Assembly: GCA_945897915.1 (NCBI GenBank)
Contig: CAMDGB010000011.1
Location: 1 to 64,000, forward strand
Length of the DNA: 64,000 nt
Source of the DNA: Chryseobacterium gleum
Lineage (GTDB): Bacteria > Bacteroidota > Bacteroidia > Flavobacteriales > Flavobacteriaceae
Direction: 5' to 3'
Shown here piece by piece: positions 7,929-14,906 of this stretch (position 1 is its first letter; each line of letters begins with the position of its first letter). The position numbers were made by a program, and so were the translations under genes. Under the pieces are notes generated by a model. That model made no database searches, had not been told where the DNA came from, and saw nothing but the letters and a program-made list of their open reading frames with translations.

Positions 7929-9230
7929 TTAGCTCTTTTTTTTTAACCACAAATTTCTAAACGATTTACTTTTGTCATAATCGCCAGCTTGTTTCTCAAT
8001 ATTGAAGTAGCGATGCCCTCTTGGATCGTTGCCAACCCCAGCTAAATAGGCCCAATTTCCCCAATTGCTACAAACGTCATAATCGATAAGTTGCTCTTCA
8101 AAATAAGCTGCTCCAAAACGCCAATCCATGTTCAATTCATTGCAAAAATAACTGGCAACATTTTGCCTTCCACGATTACTCATAAATCCGGTTTGTTGCA
8201 ATTCGAGCATATTGGCATTAATAAAATCAGAAGGTGTTGCGCCATTCATCCATTGCGAAAGTAGTTTTTCATTCAAGGATTTCGAATTCACTTTTTCGGT
8301 TTTTATTCCTTCATATAAGAAAAATTTCGTTTGGTATTTTTTAAACATAAATCGGAAAAAGTCCCTCCAAAGTAATTCAAAAACCAACCAATAAGTGGAA
8401 TCATTTGCACCAAACTGCTTTTCGTATTTTTTAATTTCAGCATAAATAAATCGCGCTGAAATACAACCCATAGCCAACCAAGCTGAAAATTTAGAAGAAT
8501 AATCAGCGCCCACCATTCCGTTTCTAGTTTCTTTATACGATGACAAACATTGTGTATCGTAAAAATAATGATGCAATCTTTGTAAAGCTACTGATTCGCC
8601 ACCTTTAAATTGTAAAACTGCCCTAGAATCGATTGTAGTTTTGGTTAAGCCTAAAGCTTCTAATGTTGGTAATTCCAAAGGCGAAATTTTAGGCGAATTA
8701 ATTTTTGTTGGTGCTTCAAAAGGTGCTCTTATTTGAGAATCTTTTTCTGTTTTTTTTTTGAAATTAGAAAACACATCCGGAATGTCTTTGATAGAAAAAG
8801 GCAAATCTTCGGCGTGATATAAAGTACTTGTGCTAATTTTTTCTAATTCGCAACGCACTTTAAATAATTCATCTTGCACCTTTTTCTCAGTTTGTCTTTC
8901 TTCAAAAGCCACTTCTCGCTTGGCAAACACTTTTTGTGCTTTAAATTGATTTACAATTTTAGGGATTTCTATTTCAGGTTTTCCTTTTAAAATAAGTAAT
9001 CCCGAACCTAAAGTTCTTAACCTTGCATCTAAATCTTGAAGCGATTCCAATAAAAATTGTGCTCTGAAACTGCCTGTTTTTTTAAATCCGTAGGATGTTG
9101 TTTCAAAATGGGATTCGTCAAAACAATACACGGGAATTACATTCTCGCTAATGGCGATAGCTTTTACAAGGGTTTCGTTGTCTTCTATTCGTAAGTCGGT
9201 TTTAAACCAAACAATTGCTGTTTTTATCAT
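7929..9230 (-). CDS. DASH-family cryptochrome/photolyase
   Basis: Flavoprotein of the cryptochrome-DASH branch, which repairs cyclobutane pyrimidine dimers mainly in single-stranded DNA and may also sense light. The 433-residue product has the N-terminal antenna domain (IVWFKTDLRIEDNETLVKA) and a C-terminal FAD domain with GADYSSKFSAWLAMGCISAR, FELLWRDFFRFM, GFMSNRGRQNVASYF, and the DYDVCSNWGNWAYLAGVG block that contains the flavin-contacting Asn and the Trp of the electron-transfer chain. The DASH-type ending NDPRGHRYFNIEKQ is present. Its ATG overlaps the stop of the upstream iron-sulfur photolyase gene by 4 bases (ATGA), so the two are co-translated. It is the last gene of the photolyase operon. 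Confidence 0.93.
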   Translation of the reverse strand: MIKTAIVWFKTDLRIEDNETLVKAIAISENVIPVYCFDESHFETTSYGFKKTGSFRAQFLLESLQDLDARLRTLGSGLLILKGKPEIEIPKIVNQFKAQKVFAKREVAFEERQTEKKVQDELFKVRCELEKISTSTLYHAEDLPFSIKDIPDVFSNFKKKTEKDSQIRAPFEAPTKINSPKISPLELPTLEALGLTKTTIDSRAVLQFKGGESVALQRLHHYFYDTQCLSSYKETRNGMVGADYSSKFSAWLAMGCISARFIYAEIKKYEKQFGANDSTYWLVFELLWRDFFRFMFKKYQTKFFLYEGIKTEKVNSKSLNEKLLSQWMNGATPSDFINANMLELQQTGFMSNRGRQNVASYFCNELNMDWRFGAAYFEEQLIDYDVCSNWGNWAYLAGVGNDPRGHRYFNIEKQAGDYDKSKSFRNLWLKKKS

Positions 9231-10762
9231 AACTCATTCATATTTTTCAAATAATAATCCGCTTGTTCTAACAAGGCAACTTTATCATCAGGTTTCATTT
9301 TTCGCCACACATTATACATCATTCCAATGCGGGGATTTTTGCCTAATTTGTCTTCGTTTTTATCATAGAAATTCCAATACAGACTATTGAACGGGCAAGC
9401 TTTTTCACCTGTTTTTATTGCTTTTTTATAGTAACAGCTTCCGCAATAATGACTCATTTTGTCAATATAAGATGCAGAACTTACATAGGGTTTTGTACCA
9501 ACAATGCCGCCATCTGCAAACTGACTCATGCCGCGTGTATTCGTAATTTCTACCCATTCAATCGCATCAATATAAATGCCCAAATACCAAGCATCTACTT
9601 CATCGGGATGAATTCCCGCTAAAAGGGCAAAATTTCCTGTAATCATCAATCGCTGAATATGGTGTGCGTAAGCGTAATTTAAGGATTGGTTAATCGCGTC
9701 TTTCAAACAATTCATTTTTGTTTTGCCGGTCCAAAACCATTCTGGAAGTTGGTTTTCGTTATTGAAATAATTCATTGTGGCAAATTCTGGCATTTTTTCC
9801 CAATAAATCCCACGCATGTATTCGCGCCAGCCGATAATTTGGCGCACAAATCCTTCCAACTGATTGTAAGCAATTTCTTCAGGCCGATTTTCCCATTCTG
9901 TAATGGCTCGTTGGATCACTTCCAAAGGTGAAATCAATTTTATATTCATCGAAAACGAAATTCTCGCATGATACAACGACCATTCGTTTGGTGTCATGGC
10001 ATCTTGATAACTTCCAAAAAGCGCCAAACATTCGGTTACAAAAAAATCGAGTAATTTTAACGATTGTGCTCTGTTGATGGGCCATACAAAATTTTCAGCA
10101 TCAATATTTCCGATGGTTTTGATGTCTGTTTTTTGAATTTCAGAAACGATTTTCGAAACATTATTATTGAAAACCAAAGGCGGTGTTGGTTTGTGATCTT
10201 TTGGCAATTTTTTTCTGTTTTCGCCATCATAATTCCATTTTCCTGTCAACGGTTTAGCGCCTTCCATTAAAATATGGTGTTTTTTGCGCATCATGTGGTA
10301 AAAACTTTCCATTAAAAAGGTTTTTTTACCTTCAAAAAAATCACCTAATTCGTTTCTAGAACTCATAAAATGTTCCGAATCGCAAACTGAAGTTGGTATA
10401 GATAGCGATTGGCACAAATTTTTCAGCTGTTCATCCAAACGGTATTCATCAGGAAATTGGTAATCAAAATGGGTGAATTGCACTTTTTCAACTAAAAAGC
10501 GAATGTTTTTTTCGAACGATTGTAAATTCGATGCATCATTCAAATGCAAATAAATTACTTTGTGTTTTTGCATTTGTAATTCAGAGGCAAATTGTTGCAT
10601 CGCAGAGAAAAAACCAGCAATTTTTTGAATATGATGTTTGGCATAATCGGTTTCTGTGCGAATTTCCATCAAAACATAAGTCACGGAATCATCCACCGCT
10701 TGAAACCAAGAATGATTGCTATTTAATTGATCTCCGAGAAGTAATCGTAACGTTTTTGACAT
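9227..10762 (-). CDS. iron-sulfur bacterial cryptochrome/photolyase (PhrB/CryB type, DPRP)
   Basis: Deoxyribodipyrimidine photolyase-related protein of the iron-sulfur branch, whose characterised members are (6-4) photolyases. The 511-residue length fits. Four cysteines, 352, 440, 443 and 456, have exactly the spacing of the [4Fe-4S] ligands in Agrobacterium PhrB (350, 438, 441, 454); the last three lie in YCGSCYYKK...ACPFNSLYW. The N-terminus LRLLLGDQLNSNHSWF and the central RQIIGWREYMRGIYW are family signatures, as is NTRGMSQFADGG before the cluster. It lies 6 bases after the DUF2256 gene and overlaps the DASH gene by 4 bases. Assignment is firm; whether the lesion is (6-4) or CPD is inferred. 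Confidence 0.93.
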   Translation of the reverse strand: MSKTLRLLLGDQLNSNHSWFQAVDDSVTYVLMEIRTETDYAKHHIQKIAGFFSAMQQFASELQMQKHKVIYLHLNDASNLQSFEKNIRFLVEKVQFTHFDYQFPDEYRLDEQLKNLCQSLSIPTSVCDSEHFMSSRNELGDFFEGKKTFLMESFYHMMRKKHHILMEGAKPLTGKWNYDGENRKKLPKDHKPTPPLVFNNNVSKIVSEIQKTDIKTIGNIDAENFVWPINRAQSLKLLDFFVTECLALFGSYQDAMTPNEWSLYHARISFSMNIKLISPLEVIQRAITEWENRPEEIAYNQLEGFVRQIIGWREYMRGIYWEKMPEFATMNYFNNENQLPEWFWTGKTKMNCLKDAINQSLNYAYAHHIQRLMITGNFALLAGIHPDEVDAWYLGIYIDAIEWVEITNTRGMSQFADGGIVGTKPYVSSASYIDKMSHYCGSCYYKKAIKTGEKACPFNSLYWNFYDKNEDKLGKNPRIGMMYNVWRKMKPDDKVALLEQADYYLKNMNEL

Positions 10763-10768
10763 CTTATT

Positions 10769-10906
10769 TTATTTTTTTCCTCTGCATCTATCACTACAAT
10801 ATTTTACTTCGTCCCAAACTTTCTCCCATTTTTTCCGCCAAGTGAATGGTTTTTGGCATACTAAACAAATTTTAGTCGGTAGGTTTTGTTTTTTTACTCC
10901 TCGCAT
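10769..10906 (-). CDS. DUF2256 zinc-finger-like small protein
   Basis: A 45-residue protein reading [18 protein letters not shown], then [20 protein letters not shown] and DRCRGKK. The pattern CxxC (Cys14, Cys17), [18 protein letters not shown] and C-terminal DRCR (Cys37, Cys41) is that of the DUF2256 family, small putative zinc-binding proteins commonly found beside photolyase genes. Its function is not known. The gene starts 35 bases inside the end of the divergent photolyase gene and stops 6 bases before the iron-sulfur photolyase gene, so it is embedded in the operon. It is easy to miss because of its size. The four-cysteine pattern makes chance unlikely. Confidence 0.9.
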
Positions 10907-12380
10907 TTTTCAATTTGTTGGGATTGCTCACGTGTTTTTGCAAAATTCGTTTGCCTTCTTCTTTCACTTCTTCTTTTTTTCGAAAGCTCCAAACAATATC
11001 AATAGCATACTTCCGAGTTTCTTCAATATTTACGATAGGTGCTGGATAATCTTTGCCAATGGTACAATTGTAAAATTGCTGTTCCATTTCGTTCATTTTC
11101 CATGGTTCATGTAGCAAATGAACTGGTATTTCTGCTAATTCAGGCAACCATTGTTTGATGAAGATTCCTTCTGAATCATGTTCTTCTGAATTTTTAATTG
11201 GACTGTAAATTCGTATCGTATTAATTCCCGTAGTGCCTGATTGCATTTGAATTTGCGGATAATGAATCCCAGGTTCGTAATCTAAAAATTGCCTTGCTAA
11301 GAAATGCAATTCGCGCCAATCTTGCCATAAATTAAAGGTAAAAAACGACACCACCATTGCGCGCATTCTAAAATTAATGTAACCTGTTGCAACCAAACAT
11401 CGCATGCAAGCATCTACAATTGGCACACCAGTTTTTCCTTCTTGCCAAGCTTTTATGTAGGTTTCGTTTTTGGGTTTAATCAAAGTATCATAAGCTCGGT
11501 TTGCGTTTTCAAATTCCATTTCGCATTCGTCTTCAAATTTTTGAATAAAATGGCAATGCCAATGCAAACGGGAAACAAAATTCAGGATGGCTCTTTTGTT
11601 TTTGGAAGTTTCGTAATGCTGATTCGTATATTGATAAATCATCCGCATGCTAATGTTTCCATAGGCCAAATATGGTGACAATCGGCTACAGCCTTTTCTG
11701 CTCAAAGCTGGTTTCGAAATGTGTTTGCTGTAATTGACATAGCGTTCTTTGATAAAACTGTCCAAATAGCGCCATGCCCAGTATTCACCACCTCGTTGAA
11801 AGTTGGGATTTGGAGATGTAATTTCGATTGGTAAATTGTTGCCTTTTAAAGTATCGTAAAATTCAGAATCTAATTCTATTGTATTTAAATCGGATTCTTT
11901 TATATTTTTAAGGGTATCTTGCATGACTTGCTCCCAACGTTTGTCCCAATCTTGTCTTGATTTTAGTCTACGAATAACGCCGTGCATTTGAAATTCTTTC
12001 CAAGTTATTTCATTGGAACTGAAAAACGACTTCATTTCCAAATCGCGGTCATAGGTTACTTTATTTCCTATTTCTTGATGAGAAAAAACAGTTTTCACTT
12101 CGAATTTATATATTAATTCAGAAAAAACGGTTTTTACTTCGTTATGGAAAAAATAGATTACAGCATTAAAAGGTGCTAGTTTTTTATTCAAATCCTGAAT
12201 GGATTCGTAAATAAATCGCCAATGTCGCACATCTGAATCATCATAATTCATTACGGATGGTTCGAAAACATAAATCAGCAATAAAGGCAAATCAGATTGG
12301 TGAGCATAAAAAAGCGCTTCGTTGTCAACCAAACGAAGGTCACGTTTGAACCATACAATATTGATTGCTTTTTTTGTCAA
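10872..12380 (-). CDS. divergent class I-like photolyase/cryptochrome
   Basis: A 502-residue photolyase homologue with an antenna domain ([19 protein letters not shown]) and a FAD domain containing [15 protein letters not shown] (about 232-246), [18 protein letters not shown] (317-334) and the C-terminal FIKQWLPEL and HEPW. It departs from E. coli PhrB at key places: MHNRLR becomes INFRMR (335-340), and the loop with Asn378 and Trp382 is replaced by [10 protein letters not shown] (371-380), so no Asn faces the flavin N5 and the proximal Trp is absent. The chain ends in a Lys-rich tail. The start is TTG, 2 bases after the flavin reductase stop. Activity as a CPD photolyase is uncertain; a photoreceptor or different lesion specificity is possible. 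Confidence 0.85.
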
Positions 12381-12382
12381 AA

Positions 12383-13033
12383 TTAAATTAGAGTTGTAAT
12401 TATTTTGTCAGGTTTGGCATAACTCAATCTTGATATTTGTGTAGTTTTATGATAACTATCTAATCCGGAACAAGTTATTGATTCTGCTTTTTCAATATCT
12501 AGAAAACCATCTTTTTGCAAACAGTTTTCTGGAAAATAAACGTCTTTAACTTCACCAATTATAAGAACGGTATTATTGATGGAAAGCGTTATTTTTTCTT
12601 TAAATTCTATTGCCAATTGTACGTTGCTTTCTTTTACAAAAGGCGCAAAAAAGTTATTTTTAAATTCAGGTGTTAAGCCAGTTTCGTCAAATTCTGAGCA
12701 ATCTCTATCATACCTAGCTGAGGTTTGATGGGCTTGTTCGTGAATTTTTTCATTGATGTGATTAATAGTATAAAAACCTGTTTTTAATATATTTTCAAGA
12801 GTATGTCGTTCTACAACTCCTGGACGAAAAACCATTCCGAATAATGGCGGATTGCTTCCAATATGTAAAATAGAATCTACAATAGCCAAATTGGTTTGAT
12901 TTTTTTTGTTTTGTGTGCCAATTAATCCAACGCTTTTAAAACCACCTAAGCTATTTGCAAAATGAACACGTTCTTGTTTTTCCATGTTCAAAATTTGTTC
13001 TTGGGTAATATGTTTTACTAAAGTTTCACCCAT
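12383..13033 (-). CDS. flavin reductase-like FMN-binding split-barrel protein
   Basis: A 216-residue protein of the flavin reductase-like family that typically binds FMN and uses NAD(P)H. Visible features are the N-terminal [22 protein letters not shown], the substrate-side LFGMVFRPG, and [17 protein letters not shown], which correspond to the conserved flavin-binding strands of this fold. It overlaps the end of the DUF2452 gene by 16 bases and precedes the divergent photolyase by 2 bases. A source of reduced flavin next to three flavin-dependent photolyases is a sensible partnership, but this is inference; an independent oxidoreductase role cannot be excluded. Confidence 0.8.
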
Positions 13034-13413
13034 TTTTTATCACTATTTAATTGAAAGGTTCCAATATGTTCTTTATTCCATTCGTTTGGTGGAATTAAGG
13101 ACAAAAAATAAGTGGCATTACCTGATGCGTACAAATGATATATCTCTCCAATTATAGGTTCAAATGAAAATTTTGAATTGTAAACCATTTCATTCCATTC
13201 AAATTCTTCCATTAAATTTTGGTACTGTAATTTTAGTTCATTGAATTTATTTTCAAATTCTTTGTTCACATTTCTAACGCCCCTGCCTTTCCATGCGGCA
13301 ACATCATCAACTTTAATTATAGGCGCACTTACAGTTGTTGCATAAGGTAAAAAACTTGCATTGTATCCATTTTCCTCTGAATAAACCACATTATCAGGCT
13401 TTTTGTTTTCCAT
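13018..13413 (-). CDS. DUF2452 domain protein
   Basis: A 131-residue cytosolic protein without signal peptide or membrane segment. I recognise the DUF2452 pattern: N-terminal KPDNVVYSEENGYNASFLPY, the Trp/Gly/Arg block AAWKGRGVRNVN near residue 41, a helical FNELKLQYQNLMEEFEW, and the C-terminal FEPIIGEIYHLY with LSLIPPNEW. The middle segment may form a short coiled coil. Function is unknown. It sits 8 bases after the TIGR03643-type gene and overlaps the flavin reductase gene by 16 bases, so it belongs to the photolyase operon. Confidence 0.8.
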   Translation of the reverse strand: MENKKPDNVVYSEENGYNASFLPYATTVSAPIIKVDDVAAWKGRGVRNVNKEFENKFNELKLQYQNLMEEFEWNEMVYNSKFSFEPIIGEIYHLYASGNATYFLSLIPPNEWNKEHIGTFQLNSDKKWVKL

Positions 13414-13421
13414 TTTTTCTT

Positions 13422-13724
13422 TTATCTTTTTGATATTTTATTATTAGAAATAGCTCTTTGTAATTTGCATTTGAATCGGTCGATTCCTTCAGCACGTTTT
13501 GCTGTATGTTTGGTTTTGCAATTTTCAACCCGTTTTCGCCACAGTTTGTAACTTGAAAATTTTAATTCTTTTTTCATTAAAGCTTTTACATCAGCTTCAG
13601 CTAAACCAAATTGAAATTTTATGGCATCAAAAGGCGTTCTGTCTTCCCATGCCATTTCGATAATTCTATCAATGGCAATGTCGTCCAATTCAGTTTTTTG
13701 CGTAACAGGCATTTTGTTTAACAT
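13422..13724 (-). CDS. TIGR03643/DUF2805 family protein
   Basis: A 100-residue basic protein, first of the photolyase operon. The pattern LDDIAIDRIIEMAWEDRTPF, then FGLAEADVKALMKKEL and YKLWRKRVENCKTKH is typical of the DUF2805/TIGR03643 family. The central part looks like a helix-turn-helix (IKFQFGLAEADVKALMKKEL), so nucleic acid binding is conceivable, for instance as a local regulator, but no function is established. The ATG at 13724 lies 18 bases below a good promoter; a second ATG four codons in is an alternative start. Confidence 0.8.
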   Translation of the reverse strand: MLNKMPVTQKTELDDIAIDRIIEMAWEDRTPFDAIKFQFGLAEADVKALMKKELKFSSYKLWRKRVENCKTKHTAKRAEGIDRFKCKLQRAISNNKISKR

Positions 13725-13742
13725 TAATTAAAAAATAATAAA

Positions 13743-13773
13743 CAAAATTAAGTAGAATAATTTGATTTTCAAT
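13743..13773 (-). promoter_or_regulatory. promoter of the photolyase operon
   Basis: On the minus strand ATTG, exactly 19 bases, then TAATTTTG, one mismatch from the Bacteroidota consensus. It lies 18 bases upstream of the first gene and just below the terminator of the preceding gene, so the seven genes down to the DASH cryptochrome can form one transcript. Confidence 0.6.
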
Positions 13774-13791
13774 ACTGGAAGGAAATAAAAA

Positions 13792-13831: not shown

Positions 13832-14284
13832 TTAGAAGAGCGAAGCCACCTGTTCGGTTACAAATTCTAAAAAACGTTCATCTGCTTCTGTAAATGGGTC
13901 AATCACATGACTGTCGATATCTATTTGACCAATATTTATTCCATTTACAAATAAAGGCACAACAATTTCCGATTTTACGGTAAAGCTACAAGCAATGTAA
14001 TTATCTTGGGCAGAAACGTCAGGCACAACAAAGTTAGCGTTGCTTTCTGCTACTTGGCCGCAAATACCTTTTCCGAAAGGGATTACGGTATGATCTGTTT
14101 TAGCACCTACGTATGGTCCAAGATGTAAAGTTTTGGTTTCATGATTGGCAAAATAAAAACCAACCCAATTGTAATATGAAATAGAATCTTGTAATAATTG
14201 ACAAATATTAGAAAGCTTTTCATCTCTATTTTCATTAGTTTTAATGATGTTTTTTACTTCTGTTTTTATAAGTTCAAATTCCAT
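13832..14284 (-). CDS. msrC: free methionine-(R)-sulfoxide reductase (GAF domain)
   Basis: A single GAF-domain protein of 150 residues, the normal size of fRMsr. It reduces free methionine-R-sulfoxide in the cytosol using thioredoxin. Diagnostic blocks are YYNWVGFYFA (about 39-48), LHLGPYVGA, the cysteine-bearing FGKGICGQVAES, IACSFTVKSEIVVPLF with the second conserved Cys, and DIDSHVIDPF near the C-terminus. The start chosen gives MEFELIKTEV; the frame stays open 27 codons upstream but that extension is Phe/Asn/Lys-rich noise overlapping the divergent promoter region. It is transcribed away from xrtF with 70 bases between the starts. Confidence 0.9.
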   Translation of the reverse strand: MEFELIKTEVKNIIKTNENRDEKLSNICQLLQDSISYYNWVGFYFANHETKTLHLGPYVGAKTDHTVIPFGKGICGQVAESNANFVVPDVSAQDNYIACSFTVKSEIVVPLFVNGINIGQIDIDSHVIDPFTEADERFLEFVTEQVASLF

Positions 14285-14331
14285 TTTTAATTTTTTTGTA
14301 AAATTATACATTAATAAGAAAGTAAAAATTA

Positions 14332-14339
14332 TATTTTTG
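14332..14339 (+). promoter_or_regulatory. -7 box of the xrtF promoter
   Basis: TATTTTTG fits TAnnTTTG and ends 15 bases before the TTG start of xrtF. No good -33 TTTG is seen at the right distance. Its position argues against the upstream in-frame starts. Confidence 0.4.
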
Positions 14340-14354
14340 TTAAAATTTAAAATT

Positions 14355-14906
14355 TTGAAAAACATATTTCAGCAGCATAAAGTATTTTTTATTTTTCTAA
14401 TAAAGTTTTTATTGAGCTATTTTATTGTTACGATAATTTACTCGCTTTATTTAAATCAATACCACACACAAAAAAATGAGGTAGATGGTATTACGCATTT
14501 TGTAGCAAAACAAACTGAAAACATTCTCGTTTTTTTTAGTGCAAATTGCGAGATAATAAAGCATGAATTGGAACCTTCCTATAAAATAATTTACAATTCT
14601 AAGTACATCGCTCGAATAGTGGAAGGTTGTAATTCGGTAAGTGTAATTATTTTATTTGCTGCCTTTATATTTTCGTTTTCAAATAAATTTATTACTACTT
14701 TTTTGTATATATTTTTGGGTTCAATAGTGATTTTTATATTGAATATTTTCAGAATTGCTTTACTTACGGCAGGACTTTATAAGTATCCAGAATACGGCAC
14801 TTTTTTACATGATATTTTGTTTCCTTTAGTTATTTATGGATTGGTTTTTGTGTTATGGATTGTTTGGGTTATTAAATTTTCAGCGTATGCAAAATCGAAA
14901 AAATAA
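14355..14906 (+). CDS. xrtF: exosortase F (XrtF)
   Basis: Integral-membrane cysteine protease/transpeptidase of the exosortase family, expected to process C-terminally tagged surface proteins. Counting from the TTG start the protein has 183 residues with several membrane segments and the exosortase catalytic triad: Cys92 in RIVEGCNSVS, Arg133 in NIFRIALLTAG and His152 in TFLHDILFP. The frame is open 37 codons further upstream, but that stretch overlaps the divergent gene and lies above the -7 box, so the TTG start is preferred. The next gene, its typical partner, starts 20 bases before the end of xrtF. No tagged substrate is visible in the window. Confidence 0.9.
   Translation: MKNIFQQHKVFFIFLIKFLLSYFIVTIIYSLYLNQYHTQKNEVDGITHFVAKQTENILVFFSANCEIIKHELEPSYKIIYNSKYIARIVEGCNSVSVIILFAAFIFSFSNKFITTFLYIFLGSIVIFILNIFRIALLTAGLYKYPEYGTFLHDILFPLVIYGLVFVLWIVWVIKFSAYAKSKK

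Follow-up and report, generated by a model that had tools for sequence, protein, structure and literature searches.

In Pseudomonas, the PplR and PmlR regulators combine a MerR domain with a B12-binding domain, the genes phrB, cryB, folE and pplR1 are light-inducible, and PmlR2 acts as a repressor in vitro, as described in the accessible part of the report (PMC9758184). Photolyase genes also form a gene-proximity cluster that, according to the accessible part of another paper, is enriched in proteorhodopsin-bearing Flavobacteriia (PMC5932025), and the accessible text of a third describes a two-gene photolyase operon in Synechococcus PCC 7335 that is induced by UV-B, before which, according to its authors, only two reports of photolyases in operons existed (PMC9649867). 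Here, we describe a seven-gene operon with three photolyase-family genes, located in a stretch of 64,000 nucleotides from Chryseobacterium gleum (contig CAMDGB010000011.1; the whole stretch is called the window), together with a 34-bp inverted repeat that overlaps its promoter. As judged from sequence analyses, we estimate at roughly 0.7 the probability that the operon serves light-inducible DNA photorepair as part of a LitR/CarH-type regulon.

The locus is similar to the Pseudomonas regulon in that a regulator with MerR and B12-binding domains is associated with photolyase-type and folE targets, and its candidate targets extend beyond those in the accessible part of that report to proteorhodopsin/blh, a three-photolyase operon, DUF2805 and DUF2452 (PMC9758184). 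It shares the grouping of photolyase genes with the cluster in proteorhodopsin-bearing marine Flavobacteriia, while a shared operator, a regulator or the pocket discussed below are not described in the accessible part of that study (PMC5932025). Like the Synechococcus operon, as far as that is described in the part consulted, it brings several photolyases together, but in seven genes rather than two (PMC9649867). Since LitR/CarH regulons and a flavobacterial photolyase cluster are already known, the regulatory logic is known as well. Three things appear to be new, with no description found in the parts of the literature surveyed: the operator, its extension to proteorhodopsin as well as to this operon, and the third photolyase's pocket. 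Neither the operator nor a link of DUF2256 or DUF2805 to photolyases was found in the titles and opening parts of abstracts listed by a search, with subscription papers and preprints outside its scope, nor was the word photolyase found inside the papers from that search that name DUF2256 or DUF2805. To our knowledge, it is not settled how light switches proteorhodopsin and photoprotection in flavobacteria. The 34-bp operator, its 41 exact sites, a candidate photoreceptor and a target list make this question testable in one strain.

The operon and its control region contain the following features, all on the minus strand:

13743..13774, Bacteroidota-type promoter TATTG-N19-TAATTTTG, identified by reading the sequence
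13713..13746, inverted-repeat operator TTTGTTTA-N18-TAAACAAA, an exact copy, overlapping both the -7 box and the first gene's start codon
13724-13422, DUF2805/TIGR03643 protein of 100 amino acids (DUF2805 120 bits; TIGR03643 114.6 bits, cut-off 66.55)
13413-13018, DUF2452 protein of 131 amino acids (41.4 bits, cut-off 25)
13033-12383, flavin reductase-like protein of 216 amino acids (Flavin_Reduct 58.9 bits)
12380-10872, divergent photolyase/cryptochrome-like protein with a TTG start (FAD_binding_7 221 bits, photolyase domain 75.5 bits)
10906-10769, DUF2256 protein of 45 amino acids (83 bits)
10762-9227, iron-sulfur (FeS) (6-4) photolyase, FeS-BCP/CryPro, of 511 amino acids (DPRP PF04244 250 bits)
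9230-7929, cryDASH of 433 amino acids (TIGR02765 563.7 bits, cut-off 317.05)

A preliminary description of the window had reported a minus-strand run of seven genes behind a promoter. All seven reading frames are present, from 13724 down to 7929, the widest gap at their junctions being 8 nt and the longest overlap 35 nt, the gene identities proposed there agree with Pfam and NCBIfam searches, and the promoter (ATTG, 19 nt, TAATTTTG, 13750-13743) was found as well. A scan of named genomes with the divergent photolyase identified at least 590 relatives, the best 80 of which are the 80 loci referred to below. The complete run, in the same order and on one strand, is present in six of these (L096, L098-L102), which are labelled as Flavobacterium (four), uncultured Bacteroidetes (one) and Sphingobacterium (one, a metagenome-assembled genome); cryDASH is partial in L100, and the FeS gene is split into two frames in L101. 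The genome of F. macrobrachii contains the seven-gene run. Since the order is intact in six of 80 loci, it is not due to chance. Partial sets, often rearranged, include DUF2256 in 42 of the loci, DUF2805 in 34, cryDASH in 22, the flavin reductase in 20 and DUF2452 in 10, and absences are uninformative because many of the contigs are short. Judged by gene content and order, the seven-gene operon is real and conserved.

The inverted repeat that overlaps the promoter goes unmentioned in the preliminary description. The operator is 34 bp long, has no mismatches at 13712-13747, and its 15-nt arms are 87% complementary. An alignment of the upstream regions of related operons contains TTTTGTTTAA and TTAAACAAAA on either side of the start region, and TAnTTTTG runs into the left arm of the operator in the window and in eight of nine aligned relatives; in L103, the site is located about 0.5 kb upstream. 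With the reversed pattern as a control, an exact site was found in 14 of the 80 divergent-photolyase loci and the control in none. The spacing is 18 nt: in 2.13 Mb of fetched loci, 17 exact TTTGTTTA/TAAACAAA pairs have this spacer, while the remaining spacers between 8 and 29 nt and the reversed control gave none. These loci were mostly picked for photolyases or DUF2805, so the scan informs on the spacer rather than on a genome-wide rate.

The source genome (G000, 2.14 Mb) contains three exact copies of the repeat, while the reversed control gave none. Besides the copy in front of the operon, the following copies were found:

G000:C8:75001-75034 (L176), exact, 8 bp before folE
G000:C18:43432-43465 (L178), exact, 29 bp before an SRPBCC-like gene, which is followed by a class I cyclobutane pyrimidine dimer (CPD) photolyase
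G000:C15:1960-1993 (L179), one mismatch, between blh (PF15461, beta-carotene dioxygenase) and rhodopsin (PF01036)
over the start of the gene at G000:C13:36089, two mismatches; this gene encodes a MerR-B12 protein and is followed by a crtI-like (phytoene-desaturase-like) gene

The SRPBCC-like gene is named by resemblance, and Pfam assigned its product no family. The class I photolyase that follows is interrupted by the end of the contig, and the gene appears to be split between the end of C18 and the start of C51; with this split gene, the genome probably has four photolyase-family genes.

In a survey of 148 Bacteroidota genomes, taken as a single draw, the exact repeat occurs at 41 sites in 18 genomes, compared with one site for the control. 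The genes in the flanks were named by resemblance, with Pfam searches on ten proteins:

ECF, crt and litR genes: extracytoplasmic function (ECF) sigma gene with crtI/crtB, 5; ECF gene without crt genes, 1; crtI directly after litR, 4; litR, 2
pterin and rhodopsin: PTPS-folE, 1; folE, 1; rhodopsin/blh, 1
photolyase-linked: flavin reductase with FeS photolyase, 2; SRPBCC-like gene with photolyase, 2; DUF2256-cryDASH, 1; the source operon, 1
other: DUF2452, 3; TetR-AarF ahead of photolyase genes, 1; SDR/DUF2867, 1
fasciclin-like lipoproteins, 7 (L247, L250, L255, L262, L265, L273 and L277; one checked with Pfam)
unclear or chance, 8

At one locus (L243), the genes downstream of the ECF sigma gene that the exact operator precedes are mutY- and ssb-like, and not carotenoid genes.

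The distribution of the operator follows that of LitR. At a threshold of at least 140 bits, LitR orthologues were identified in 30 of the 148 genomes, all from one class, and these include all 18 genomes with the operator; none of the 118 genomes without a LitR orthologue has an exact site. Within the class, the operator is present in 18 of the 30 genomes with LitR and in none of the seven without it (p 0.005). A site with at most two mismatches was found within 1.5 kb of litR at 23 of 30 loci (control 0/30). For this reason the two-mismatch copy at the litR gene of the source genome is counted: it is conserved at litR loci, while looser matching alone carries no signal. The source regulator (G000:C13:36089) matches MerR_1 (PF13411, 52.9 bits) and B12-binding_2 (PF02607, 38.7 bits). 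The motif Wx9EH, which we take to be the cobalamin motif of LitR/CarH, is present in 27 of the 30 orthologues, with one unread, and takes the form WTTNTITPAHEH in the source regulator. Among 40 photolyase or DUF2805 regions (L055-L094), sites with at most one mismatch occur in six loci from litR genomes and in none of the others, with no control matches in either group.

Several observations weigh against placing the operon in a LitR/CarH-type regulon. Both LitR and the operator are confined to one class, so that kinship explains part of the correlation across the phylum, and 12 of the 30 litR genomes have no exact site. At up to two mismatches, only 11 of 21 litR-genome loci among the 40 regions have a site (control 3/21), compared with none of the 19 others (control 0). 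The signal is lost at up to three mismatches in the source genome, with 214 matches per strand versus 308 for the control, and the number of loose matches in the window is at chance level. Eight of the 41 exact sites are without a sensible light target, and seven precede fasciclin-like lipoproteins, which may possibly represent an unrecognised light-regulated surface protein. A placement over the -7 box does not hold for all sites, since TAnn precedes the arm in 13 of 41 sites versus 6 of 50 background occurrences of TTTGTTTA. Moreover, the footprinted consensus in Pseudomonas, T(G/A)TACA-N12-TGTA(C/T)A in the accessible part of the report, does not match the candidate operator (PMC9758184). 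Finally, a TetR-type gene (PF17931) has a site in front of it, and its product could be the binder.

This last point leads to the alternative that the repeat is a true light-regulon operator bound by a protein other than LitR, which could be the TetR_C_23 protein, the ECF factor encoded before crtI, or DUF2805. Sites are located directly before a TetR_C_23 gene (L251, with similar genes in L062, L149 and L174) and ahead of ECF genes, and DUF2805 is the first gene of the operon and possibly helix-turn-helix (HTH)-like. The presence of LitR in every operator genome and of a site near most litR genes argues against this, and for DUF2805, the best site within 500 bp has at least three mismatches in 19 of 20 further loci (L035-L054), the remaining one (L045) having a site with two mismatches. 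The operator is therefore not tied to DUF2805 as such, and we consider another binder unlikely.

We consider it quite improbable that the seven genes make up a repair module induced by UV or damage, with the inverted repeat as a part of such a response. The preliminary description had proposed a complete UV-response module; the repair operon is retained, while the UV part is replaced by a proposed light response, since proteorhodopsin/blh, folE and carotenoid genes have the operator as well. The presence of three photolyase-family genes in a single run is compatible with a UV module, as is the exact site ahead of the ECF, mutY- and ssb-like genes in L243, and UV-B induction is described for the two-gene operon of Synechococcus PCC 7335 in the consulted part of that paper (PMC9649867). 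However, most of the readable operator targets are related to light harvesting, pigments, pterins and photolyases, and not to excision repair or the SOS response.

Regulation by LitR would work as follows. In the dark, the MerR-family B12-binding regulator encoded upstream of crtI may occupy the 34-bp repeat, where it would lie over the -7 element and the transcription start and repress the operon, and light would release the regulator and turn the operon on. Proteorhodopsin and its retinal-making enzyme, the SRPBCC-like gene with the CPD photolyase, and carotenoid synthesis would be induced together with it, as would GTP cyclohydrolase I, which could provide pterin/folate as the source of the methenyltetrahydrofolate (MTHF) antenna. 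That the operon, proteorhodopsin, a folate gene and a further photolyase pair all have the same switch in front of them suggests that the sunlight programme of this Flavobacterium-like bacterium is run by a single vitamin-B12 light sensor. Of the encoded enzymes, the FeS-BCP protein would repair (6-4) lesions and cryDASH would repair CPDs in single-stranded DNA, while the divergent photolyase may be a FAD protein with a specialised pocket that is reduced from outside, for which the flavin reductase is a natural candidate. DUF2256, which is zinc-finger-like, and DUF2805, perhaps with an HTH, could be small DNA-binding or assembly helpers of the photolyases.

Two of the photolyase-family proteins resemble known enzymes without notable differences. 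The FeS photolyase matches the FeS-BCP (6-4) photolyase of PDB 7ykn/8a1h, with 7ykn as the best match (575 bits, residues 4-509), and four cysteines align with those in 7ykn and 5kcm; we take these to be the ligands of the [4Fe-4S] cluster. The cryDASH protein matches 6kii and 1np7 over its full length (450 and 438 bits). Two types of FeS photolyases are located beside DUF2256 in other loci (L055-L174), one near to the protein in the window, with scores above 450 bits, and a distant one that mostly scores about 240-310 bits.

The third protein is distant from its closest solved relatives (136.5 bits at best), and relatives with at least 300 bits are present in 20 of the 148 genomes. The structure predicted with AlphaFold (pLDDT 93) has the same two-domain fold as class I/III CPD and (6-4) photolyases such as 4u63 and 7ayv (TMq about 0.80); among the matches listed, the top solved fold is the class III photolyase 4u63 (TMq 0.80, 24% identity) and identities to such photolyases are 20-27%. 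A sampled tree, which contained no FeS or class II sequences and none of plant or animal (6-4) type, places the divergent proteins in a single clade with 100% SH-aLRT support, whose branch measures 2.05 changes per column.

We inspected the pocket in an alignment of 73 sequences, the window protein and those from 72 of the 80 loci, with columns numbered as in the E. coli enzyme. E274 is replaced by R, N341 by F, N378 by H and W384 by M in all 73 sequences, M345 by A or S in all 73, and W382 by F, L, I or V in 72. At W306, 43 of the 73 sequences have K and the others vary, while W359 is kept in all. We take E274 to be the catalytic glutamic acid, N378 the asparagine beside N5 of FAD, and W306, W359 and W382 the tryptophan triad. 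The window protein has R266, F332, A336, H368 and M374 in the pocket, counted from 12365, and K, W and I at the triad, of which only W359 is kept. Several FAD-contact columns are retained, for example Y222, S238, R344 and D372. The gene at 10872-12380 was thus rejected as a carrier of the canonical class I CPD photolyase residue set, in which E274, N341, M345, N378, W306 and W382 would be kept, and W384 also differs from 4u63/7ayv-type photolyases. An animal-type (6-4) photolyase was rejected as well, since the columns of H365 and H369 contain F and A in an alignment with 2wb2; this pair, in fly numbering, we take to be the active-site histidines of those enzymes. The pocket of the divergent family thereby breaks the rules that separate CPD from (6-4) enzymes.

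Decay or redundancy of a class I photolyase that lacks any special function is a very unlikely account of the protein, for although the canonical catalytic residues are gone and the family reaches 300 bits in few of the genomes, R266, F332, H368 and M374 are invariant, the family is kept across several Bacteroidota families and the predicted fold is of high confidence. Because its unusual residues are invariant, the protein appears specialised rather than decayed. The broken tryptophan chain leads us to propose that it depends on reduction from outside, and only as a reasonable guess do we name an external flavin reductase as the source. We hold tentatively, at somewhat less than even odds, the wider idea that the divergent photolyase, reduced by the flavin reductase of the operon, senses light or acts on a different lesion, and that the operon is part of a B12-photoreceptor regulon, so far unrecognised, by which Flavobacteriia switch DNA repair together with antenna folate, carotenoids and proteorhodopsin phototrophy.

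The association of the helper families with photolyases was examined in the 148 genomes, with counts not corrected for kinship. DUF2805 was identified in 43 genomes, DUF2256 in 50 (49 over the cut-off), the FeS photolyase in 49 and DUF2452 in 18. The 49 DUF2256 genomes over the cut-off and the 49 with the FeS photolyase overlap in 46, in 22 of which the two genes are at most 10 kb apart, and DUF2256 and cryDASH have 33 in common, also with 22 within 10 kb; both DUF2256 and the FeS photolyase are present in all 20 genomes with the divergent photolyase. The FeS photolyase is found in 37 of the 43 DUF2805 genomes, within 10 kb in nine. The flavin reductase subfamily and the FeS photolyase are at most 10 kb apart in eight of the 20 genomes with both. 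For the flavin reductase and the divergent photolyase this holds in three of 11 genomes with both, which is no special tie and counts against the main reading. Shared genomes and proximity within 10 kb indicate that DUF2256, DUF2805 and the flavin reductase travel with photolyases. The co-occurrence expected in the preliminary description is thus borne out for these three families, and for DUF2452 only among close relatives.

DUF2452 shares 17 genomes with DUF2256, and of the 18 surveyed DUF2452 genomes, only the source genome has the gene at most 10 kb from an operon partner. With one of 18 genomes and 10 of the 80 divergent-photolyase loci, it was rejected as a universal operon partner. The best operator site has at least three mismatches in 14 other DUF2452 loci, and an exact operator precedes a stand-alone DUF2452 gene in three further genomes.

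A short photolyase-like gene adjoins the DUF2256 and FeS genes in other genomes, at the place of cryDASH in the source genome. The two proteins checked contain only FAD_binding_7 and no PF00875, and they resemble single-strand photolyases with an N-terminal FAD domain, as described in the accessible part of a previous study (PMC9426592). Counts of this gene are among the matches listed, so that low-scoring copies may be missing. On this basis, it is within 10 kb of DUF2805 in six of 11 genomes with both, and the 49 FeS-photolyase genomes contain cryDASH in 31, the short gene in 13 and both in one, a mutual exclusion of 2e-6; over all 148 genomes (35 and 13, both in one), the exclusion is not significant.

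DUF2256, DUF2805 and DUF2452 hereby gain a concrete setting in light response and DNA repair. In an alignment of 38 sequences, DUF2256 has WRKKW and four invariant cysteines in CxxC- and CSxxC-type arrangement, and it has been assigned to the TRASH zinc-binding clan in the part of the source consulted (PMC4047054). DUF2805 has a conserved MAWEDRTPF core and a basic tail and is predicted to be helical. Its model (pLDDT 70) gave weak fold matches (Z ≤4.8) that are mixed with non-DNA-binding folds, and the protein is perhaps HTH-like. A second, diverged DUF2805 gene at G000:C5:15634-15819 (L035 7578-7907) adjoins an AlkB-type 2-oxoglutarate-Fe(II) oxygenase (PF13532). An AlkB-type gene is also located at most 1 kb from DUF2805 in two of three other Flavobacterium loci examined (L036 and L037). 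The occurrence of DUF2805 in two direct-reversal repair settings suggests a role near DNA repair.

Directly upstream of the operon, at 13832-14365, there is a gene for a GAF-domain protein, and a hairpin with a run of T is located between this gene and the operon. The GAF-domain gene is probably a separate unit.

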